Assembly: GCA_016207825.1 (NCBI GenBank)
Contig: JACQZI010000032.1
Location: forward strand, 1 to 52,760
From: Planctomycetota bacterium
GTDB lineage: Bacteria > Planctomycetota > MHYJ01 > JACQXL01 > JACQZI01
Reading direction: 5' to 3'
DNA: 52,760 nucleotides
Positions 1,753 to 41,996 of this stretch are shown one piece after another. A model generated the notes under the pieces. That model was not told the origin of the DNA and searched no databases. It saw nothing but the letters and a program-made list of their open reading frames with translations. A program made the translations under genes and the position numbers. Position 1 is the stretch's first letter, and every line of letters begins with the position of its first letter.

Positions 1753-4700
1753 TTATATTTTGCTTCTAAGAGCAAGCACCTTTTTCCACGCCCGTTTTCT
1801 CAGGGATTTAAAGAGCACCTCAAACAGCCCAATCAGCATGAGCAACACAATCAGCTTCTCGATAAGGCTGCTCTGGAGCATAAATCCGGCAAACCAGATA
1901 AAGGGAGACAGGAACACCCTGGTAACGCCCTTTAAAGTGCTGTTGCCGGCAATCACCGAGGCGACTGACGGGCTATAAAAATAATAAGCATTGACGAACG
2001 CCCTGCCTAGGGAATTAGTCTTAAGGTAGTTATCACGGAAGCTCCTTAAGGTGACGAGTTCCTTTGACATCGGCGTTCCATAAGCGGCTGTGGCGATGAA
2101 GCATCTTAAGTCGTTATCACTGTCATCTTCATCCAGCCAATCAAGTCCTAGCCCCGGAGCAGAACTTCCGGAAGCGGCTGTCCCGGCGGCGCCAAAGACG
2201 CTGAAGCCCGGTGTATCCGCCACGATAATATTGGCATCCGGCACGACTACCTGACTTAAAAGGAGTTCCCATTTTGCGTCTGTTGCGTCGTAACGGTATA
2301 GCTTAAGGGTTTCTTCCTCAATAGTAGTGCCATCAACCGTCCCGTCATTATTAGTATCAGCATAATAATAAATAATTTGGGCAGGCTTTAAGAGCGTATA
2401 ACCGCCGCTTAAGGTTATTTCATGGTATGTGGAAAGGAAAGTTAAACCACCGGCAGAAGGAGCAGCGGCCGGCACCCCAACAGTCACTATAACATCAGTC
2501 AGAACCCCGCCATAGGGAATCGTTAAAGTAACTAGTTTATTCCGATTAAGTTTAGCAGTTAAAGACGAACTTATTGGGTTAGTCTGGTAATTGGTGGTTT
2601 CTTCTGTTTCCGGCGTTGTCGCTTCAATATAGATGAACACCCTCTTATTTGTCTGCGAGGCATTCCAATCGTCATAGGTAACCACCCCATCGTAATTGGC
2701 AAGTGCGACGATTTCGTACCAATGCGCGGCCGTAAGCTGGGTAGCATCTAATTTGGTAATGAAGCCTTCTGCGCCGGCATCCGCCGTGGCAAACGAGGTT
2801 ATGGCAAGAGCGGTTGTCACCCATTCCGCATTGTTAGGGGCGGTAAGAGCCGGGAGTCCGGTATCCGGCAGCACAATGGCGCCGAGATCACGGTATTTTA
2901 GATGTAATGTCGTCGTCAAGGATGTAGGTACGCTGGTTACCTTGACGGTAATATTGCCTTTAACAGTTCTTCTTAAGCCATCCTTATTGCTTCCCGGCAC
3001 GCCCGGCTGGATAATCGCGACTTTAGGCGTGGGAGAGGCCGTCACGTTTATGGTAACCGTGTCTTCGCCGACCAATCCGGAAACGTCTTCCGTGACGCGG
3101 AAGGTTGCGGTATACGAACCTGCGGTTAAATATGTAAATGAGGTGGTCGTTACGACAGGAGAACCGAAATCAAACACGCCATCGCCTTCAAAATCCCATT
3201 CGTATTTGGAAATCGTGCCACTCTCGGCAACGGCGCCGGTTCCGCCAAAACTGACCCCTTCCCCAACTTTGATATTCTGGGTGGCCGCCGGGATGGTTAT
3301 ATTGGCGGTCGGTGCGGTGGATAACGGAGCCTGCGCGGTTATGGTAACGCTTGATTTAGTGACCAATCCTGCGCTATCCTGCACCATGACTGTGGCAACA
3401 TAGGTGCCCGCTTTCGGATAGATATAAATCGCGGTGTTTGTTATCGCAGAAACTGCGGAAACATAGTCATTGACTCCATCAGTATTATAATCCCACAAAT
3501 ATGCTTCAATTTGTCCGGCGCTTGCCGTGGCCGTGGCCACGAAAGTGACAGTAACCGGGGCCGTATCGGTCGGGCTATATGCGCTTAAACCGCTGATGGT
3601 CGGAACGCCGGCCGCAGCGGCAACGGTAATAGTAATATCCTTGGTTATCGTTGAACCGTCCGCATAGGTAATCTTCAGCCTGGCGGTATAAGTCCCGGCT
3701 GTATCGTATGTGAAGGTGGTATCACCGCTTATATTACTGACAAAATCCGGCCGGAACGTGGTTCCATCATAATTAAAGTCCCATTCAAACTGGACGATCG
3801 CACTGCCCGTGCCTAATTGGGCGGTGAAATCAACGCTCAGAGGGCTGGTACCTGTCGTAACGTTTGCGGCCGGTTCGACTATGGTTTTGGCTCCGCCGGC
3901 AACGGGGGCACCAGATGGAGTAATCGCCCGTGTGCTCAAAGCGCCGAGAATCGTGACATCGGCATTGGCGGACACCTGGGAGGAGAAAGTTTCGCCGGTT
4001 GAGGCACTGCCATTCAGGTTATAAACCACCAGCCAGTTTTCGCTTCCGGCAATCGCAATGGTGCGCGGAGAGCCAAGGGTCATGGTAATTGCGGTATTAT
4101 CGGTTGCAAAGGTACTTGAGACCAGGATGGTATCACCGGTATCCGATATTCCGTTATCATTGGCGTCCAAGACGAGCCTGACTGCGGCGATATCAGTATT
4201 ATCATTGGCCGTCCCCGAAGGTGTTACCTTTACTGCGCTGATTGTTGCGTTTTCGGTGCCGGTTGTGACAGATATCTTAAGCTGTAACATGGTCAGGTTA
4301 GTGGTTGTGGTAACTTCGCTGGAAGCCGCGGGGTTATAGGTGCCGGCGCTCAAGATGACGGTTGCACCGGAAATCGCGGTGGTCGCCGCACCGACAGTAT
4401 CTTTCTTTGAGGTATCACCACTGGATGTGGCCACCATAATCAATGTTTTAACAGTGCCGTTGGTAATGGTAGCGTCGGGCGTAACCTCAACCCGTATTAT
4501 TTTTGTGGCTGCCGAGGCCAAAGACGCGGTCGCCCAGCCTGCACCGGTTACATTTGCGGTAATATCGGTTCCCGCGGCTGCGTCATCGTAATATGTCACA
4601 AACCAGCCTGAGCCCCCGGCTGTGCCGGTCAGTGTGAAAACGTCGTTAAAGTTGCCGTCGTTTTCTATGGTGATAAGATAGGTAACAATCTGTGTATTAT

Positions 4701-41518: not shown

Positions 41519-41547
41519 TTGACATGCGAATTATTTTAGCATAAAAT
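41519..41547 (+). promoter_or_regulatory. Consensus promoter of the histone-fold gene
   Basis: TTGACA (41519-41524), a 17-base spacer and TAAAAT (41542-41547). AAGGAG precedes ATG 41588 by 8 bases. The combination predicts strong expression. Confidence 0.8.
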
Positions 41548-41587
41548 TTAGTAGTCTAATCAGTAATTTAAATAAAGGAGATGTGCC

Positions 41588-41767
41588 ATGGCAGAAACAC
41601 TGGTAGTCGTCAGCAAGGTGAAGAAAATGGCAAAGGAAGCAGGTATGCGCACAGGCGCGGATGCCATTGAAAAATTAAGCCTGATGGTTGCAGATAAAGT
41701 CAAAGCCGGGATGGAAAAAGCAAAGGCTTCAGGCAAAAAGACCGTTCAAGCTATTGACTTGGAATAA
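41588..41767 (+). CDS. Single histone-fold DNA-binding protein
   Basis: A 59-residue basic protein, too short for usual gene-length cut-offs. Helix 1 (about residues 4-18: VVVSKVKKMAKE), loop 1 (GMRTGAD), a long helix 2 (about 24-48: AIEKLSLMVADKVKAGMEKA) and loop 2 with the conserved K-K-T-V (ASGKKTVQAIDLE) follow the histone fold. Archaeal histones have the same end (GRKTIKAEDIE). Bacterial histones of this short type are known from Bdellovibrio and Leptospira (family knowledge). It stands alone behind a consensus promoter with AAGGAG, as expected for an abundant chromatin protein. Confidence 0.8.
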   Translation: MAETLVVVSKVKKMAKEAGMRTGADAIEKLSLMVADKVKAGMEKAKASGKKTVQAIDLE

Positions 41768-41825: not shown

Positions 41826-41996
41826 GAAACTCTCACCGCCTTTCCGTTCCCCCACCGCAAAAGCTGGTTCCCTCTCGGAAAAAAGACGCTAACAAAAGAC
41901 ATCGCCGGTTCGTATTTGCTTTATGATTGCTCTTTTTTATACCGATAACTACATATATATACTTAAGTAAACAACCACATATTTAAGAGGTGCAAT

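Follow-up and report, generated by a model that had tools for sequence, protein, structure and literature searches.

In this study, we followed up a short gene in a 52,760-nt stretch of DNA (hereafter the window) from a Planctomycetota bacterium of the Candidatus Brocadiia and show that its product is a true bacterial histone belonging to the described HBb, or 'bacterial dimer', type. The protein, MAETLVVVSKVKKMAKEAGMRTGADAIEKLSLMVADKVKAGMEKAKASGKKTVQAIDLE, has 59 amino acids, a pI of 9.6 and a net charge of +4, and is encoded on the forward strand from an ATG at 41588 to a TAA at 41767 (Table 1). Taken by itself it is an unremarkable representative of a family already in the literature. By analogy with HBb, its function is most likely that of an abundant, non-specific nucleoid protein which bends DNA as a dimer, and we give a probability of roughly 0.8 to the reading that it is an HBb-type handshake dimer which acts as a non-specific bender of nucleoid DNA and forms neither nucleosome-like nor face-to-face (FtF) tetramers.

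Table 1. Features of the histone gene and its product, in window coordinates
Feature	Coordinates	Strand	Basis
Sigma-70-type promoter TTGACA-17-TAAAAT (-35 TTGACA 41519-41524; 17-nt spacer; -10 TAAAAT 41542-41547)	41519..41547	+	Consensus match; 29/29 identity in congener
Shine-Dalgarno AAGGAG, 7 nt 5' of ATG	41575..41580	+	Sequence
HBb-type (bacterial dimer, alpha3) histone, 59 aa + stop	41588..41767	+	phmmer, AlphaFold2, Foldseek, dN/dS
Predicted helix 1, residues 8-17, with S9, K10, K12, K16	41609..41638	+	AlphaFold2 model; all four contact DNA in HBb
R21 codon, loop 1, sprocket-arginine position	41648..41650	+	Alignment with archaeal arginine
Predicted helix 2, residues 24-47	41657..41728	+	AlphaFold2 model
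Loop-2 KKT motif and clamp, K50-K51-T52 to D57	41735..41761	+	Alignment with HBb R51-K52-T53...D58
Predicted one-turn helix 3, residues 55-58	41750..41761	+	AlphaFold2 model

In a phmmer search of the PDB the best match was HBb (Bd0055) of Bdellovibrio (E 9.5e-10), followed by HLp of Leptospira and Asgard archaeal histones (E 0.003-0.004), and the Smith-Waterman score against HBb was 131, compared with a mean of 29.6 (sd 5.4, maximum 79) for 2000 shuffles. A Pfam search with the window histone gave no meaningful match, and the NCBIfam archaeal histone model scored 16.5 bits, below its cut-off of 50. Weak NCBIfam matches that would have made the protein a phasin or a kinase were also below cut-off, are contradicted by the structure and were rejected. 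When AlphaFold2 was run with a 20-sequence alignment, it returned a single-chain model with a mean pLDDT of 92.8 and three helices; this supersedes the two-helix model obtained without an alignment, which had a pLDDT of 77 and no good match in the PDB. In Foldseek searches with the alignment-based model, HBb structures came top (TM 0.92-0.93, rmsd 0.8-1.2 Å), followed by HLp (0.84-0.85), HTkC (0.81-0.82) and the archaeal nucleosomal histones (approximately 0.6). The original prediction had proposed a histone fold and had named a predicted structure lacking it as evidence against itself; in the predicted monomer the fold was found, and the claim is borne out by the HBb match, by the confident model and by the purifying selection described below. 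The K-K-T-V...D signature had likewise been described correctly.

It has been established that alpha3 histones are defined by a helix 3 of three to four residues (Schwab et al. 2024, PMC11390915). In our model helix 3 is a single turn of four residues, and helix 2, which superposes on that of HBb, does not reach the length that it has in nucleosomal histones. That helix 3 is nearly missing, as read originally from the sequence, is thus reproduced in the predicted structure; the short helix is real, but it is not peculiar to this protein, since it defines the whole alpha3 family (PMC11390915). The archaeal resemblance pointed out at the same time holds for the fold but not for kinship, as the close relatives are bacterial. 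The archaeal nucleosomal histones HMfB and HHoB share with the window histone the fold, the loop-2 K-T, the clamp aspartate and the sprocket arginine; however, their helix 2 is longer (in HMfB by one turn relative to HBb), their TM scores are low, and archaeal histones align with the window histone only through extra columns. They also have the three-turn helix 3 for a four-helix bundle, whereas the window protein ends after one turn.

The bacterial-dimer group was originally set by sequence clustering in a CLANS map (PMC11390915). Our sequence-based assignment to it is supported by HBb/Bd0055 being the best PDB match and by the tree neighbour being Elusimicrobiota, a listed carrier of dimer-type histones. 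HBb of Bdellovibrio bacteriovorus (PDB 8CMP, 8FVX, 9EZZ, 9F0E) is identical to the window histone at 31 of 58 aligned residues, and the two have in common their size, fold and one-turn helix 3, S9-K10-x-K12 and K16, the loop-2 K-T, the clamp aspartate and the absence of the FtF residues. The helix-1 lysines of the published dimer-type profile (11, 13 and 17) correspond, via the HBb alignment, to K10, K12 and K16. The dimer-type RKTxxxD motif reads KKT....D, with K-T and D kept and the clamp arginine replaced by lysine, a conservative change common to 22 of 24 Elusimicrobiota members.

Comparison with a congener, a Candidatus Brocadiia MAG (record JAGVQN010000081; relatives at the level of the order are labelled Brocadiaceae or Planctomycetota), revealed strong purifying selection on the histone gene. 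The two proteins are 95% identical, and their codons differ by 16 synonymous and 3 non-synonymous changes (dN 0.022, dS 0.74; dN/dS approximately 0.03), whereas the products of the neighbouring genes show 70-74% identity, with the exception of a cysteine peptidase (91%). As had been predicted, a sigma-70-like promoter precedes the gene; it agrees with the consensus at 11 of 12 positions and is the top-scoring site in the region. It is unchanged in the congener, as against only 73% identity in the next 30 nt and 65% in the 3' intergenic stretch, and because the 27 nt upstream of the promoter are also 93% identical, the conserved block may serve the divergent gene as well. Most relatives of the window histone also have purine-rich ribosome-binding sites upstream, and from the promoter, the ribosome-binding site and the homologues it seems fair to infer high expression. 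Neither a terminator, in a pattern search, nor an Rfam RNA was found near the gene. The gene neighbourhood is kept in the congener only and therefore offers no functional hint. In the same region, a 48-nt stretch at 41914-41961, upstream of a gene for an 867-aa coiled-coil/TPR protein, is 47/48 identical in the congener although the intergenic region around it is otherwise poorly conserved (65% overall); this is probably a promoter or regulatory site of the coiled-coil/TPR gene.

Homology, the predicted monomer fold, purifying selection, promoter conservation and the missing FtF residues are results of the present analysis; we infer dimerisation, DNA binding, bending and abundance from HBb. 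Two chains would pair as a handshake dimer, in which two elements would hold the DNA backbone at minor grooves, namely the loop1-loop2 pair (R21, T22, K51 and T52) and the opening turns of helix 1 (S9, K10, K12 and K16). This contact would have no sequence preference, and single dimers would bend DNA and condense the nucleoid much as HU and IHF do. Because helix 3 has only one turn and the protein lacks the FtF tetramer residues, it would form no nucleosome-like or face-to-face tetramer. The main DNA contacts of HBb in simulations are N22, R57, S9, T53, T8, S24, K10, K12, K52 and K16 (PMC11317129). Six of these ten are unchanged in the window histone (S9, K10, K12, K16, K51 and T52), N22 is replaced by R21, and three are lost (T8 to V8, S24 to G23 and R57 to I56). 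The HBb RD clamp R51-D58 becomes K50-D57, HBb D49 becomes S48, and loop 1 is one residue shorter than in HBb. The loss of the T8, S24 and R57 contacts, the K-D clamp and the additional presence of HU in the genome all speak against this reading of the protein.

A further point against this reading is that the DNA-binding mode of HBb is itself disputed, straight DNA coating having been proposed in one study (PMC10627809) and bending in another (PMC11317129). As the window histone is close to Bd0055, it could be a histone that coats DNA as a straight filament, as first proposed for Bd0055 from the 8FW7 crystal packing (Hocher et al., PMC10627809), rather than a bender. We regard this as improbable, since the more recent evidence on HBb, from structures, solution experiments and simulations, points to bending (PMC11317129), and the additional arginine in loop 1, R21, would be expected to promote insertion into the minor groove.

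It is slightly less probable still that the window histone is of the FtF type, forming tetramers which wrap approximately 60 bp of DNA as HLp of Leptospira perolatii does (PDB 9QT0-9QT2). HLp has a similar alpha3 fold and is the next structural match after HBb (TM 0.84-0.85), and the other planctomycete histones that we compared are of the FtF type: all 26, including a second histone of the same genome, have the arginine and asparagine which characterize the dimer-dimer interface of FtF histones (R48, N52; PMC11390915). However, HLp is only 29% identical to the window histone, in which these two residues are replaced by K and S. The same pair occurs in its close relatives except for one alanine; both tetramer-interface residues are missing in 5/5 proteins of the window clade, and this clade clusters with dimer-type histones of Elusimicrobiota (support 99/99).

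The second histone of the genome (58 aa, locus L055:1501-1674, G000:C10:204862-205035, forward strand) lies behind GGAGGT and is of the FtF type, its tetramer interface bearing Arg and Asn. Genomes with a dimer-type histone like that of the window often carry an FtF histone as well (loci L083, G063:C65; L084, G060:C52; L085, G062:C12): besides the window's genome, the pairing occurs in that of locus L023 and in two of the Elusimicrobiota genomes checked, and we found no discussion of it in the histone literature cited here. HU is encoded in the window's genome and in every searched genome of the class, and the window histone would therefore add to HU rather than replace it. This differs from the Leptospira species studied, which have a histone without HU (PMC12701072). 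With HU and a second histone present, the window histone is not the only candidate organiser of the nucleoid, and Schwab et al. leave functions other than genome organisation open for prokaryotic histone-fold proteins generally (PMC11390915); a role as a specific regulator or as a subunit of a larger complex is nevertheless very unlikely, given that the protein has no extra domain, is basic, retains DNA-contact residues and has a strong promoter that would fit an abundant protein.

The HBb-type histone of the window has close relatives (75-95% identical) within its order in 2/2 genomes of its own family and in 2/2 of another, with none in the four genomes of a third family or in the single genome of a fourth. 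The original prediction had stressed how few bacterial groups are reported to have histones and how informative one from this lineage, with its shortened helix 3, would be; the histone is present, but Planctomycetota are already listed as carriers of both FtF and bacterial-dimer histones, the latter published from this and five other phyla (PMC11390915), and of 294 planctomycete genomes searched with a 20-sequence profile, 124 had a histone match. In the good-quality subset the count was 78 of 154, and both frequencies are far above the 1-2% reported for all bacteria (alpha3 histones occur in 1.15% of bacterial proteomes; PMC11390915).

In our tree, built on 58 columns and weak at its deep forks, the window clade joins 24 proteins of an Elusimicrobiota group (including a few MAGs labelled only 'bacterium') and three histones from virus contigs with support of 99/99; the joint clade adjoins Chlamydiota and lies apart from the planctomycete FtF clade. 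Constraining the window clade with four other Brocadiia histones was not rejected (p-AU 0.22), and constraining it with the second histone of the genome was marginally disfavoured (p-AU 0.07). The 34 named loci are biased toward near relatives. Transfer between Elusimicrobiota and this planctomycete order is plausible from these sequences, and it is possibly new that the histone of the order groups with Elusimicrobiota and not with the FtF type of the 26 other planctomycete histones. Two further observations concern unusual carriers. Four IMG/VR virus contigs of 45-190 kb (L017, L018, L019 and L020, each at 3001-3174) encode a stand-alone HBb-type histone that shares 38-50% identity with that of the window and has R(K/M)T....D in loop 2, whereas published 'phage histones' carry a helical domain at the C-terminus and have no RxTxxxD (PMC11390915); a large-terminase match was seen only in L020, and the viral origin of the four is taken mainly from IMG/VR. 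A MAG labelled 'archaeon' (L037, JAJSAI010000019) carries a histone of the FtF type, which clusters with four Brocadiia histones (support 98/89), reflecting either cross-domain transfer or an error of binning or labelling.

Within the joint clade, the Elusimicrobiota dimer histones (for example L025, 66% identical) share with the window histone the MAETLVVVSK start and R21-T22-G23, but their loop 2 is one residue longer (GKKKT rather than GKKT) and they have Glu at the position of I56. In the phmmer alignment R21 falls opposite the archaeal histone arginine, and an arginine occupies this sprocket position in 5/5 proteins of the window clade and 24/24 of the Elusimicrobiota group, whereas HBb has Asn. 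It has been reported that the sprocket arginine is not conserved in bacterial histones (Hocher et al., PMC10627809); however, Schwab et al. name an arginine R20 in the sprocket connection (PMC11390915), so its presence in part of the dimer group may not be new. The combination of a sprocket arginine with a mostly Lys-for-Arg RD clamp in the joint group is possibly a new detail.

While the novelty of the window histone is low, the residue variant and the pairing of dimer and FtF types are worth noting, and the genome adds a planctomycete that has histones of both types, dimer and FtF, together with HU. The natural replacement of Asn by Arg at the sprocket and of Arg by Lys in the clamp would allow the question of bending to be addressed by comparison. 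Rather doubtfully, we suggest that the proteins form a sub-class common to one Brocadiia order and Elusimicrobiota, perhaps exchanged between them, which has retained or reacquired the sprocket arginine of archaea, has lost two arginines of HBb (that of helix 3 and that of the RD clamp), would engage DNA unlike HBb and would act beside a wrapping FtF histone and HU. If this were true, such a sub-class beside an FtF histone and HU in one cell would represent a two-histone bacterial chromatin.
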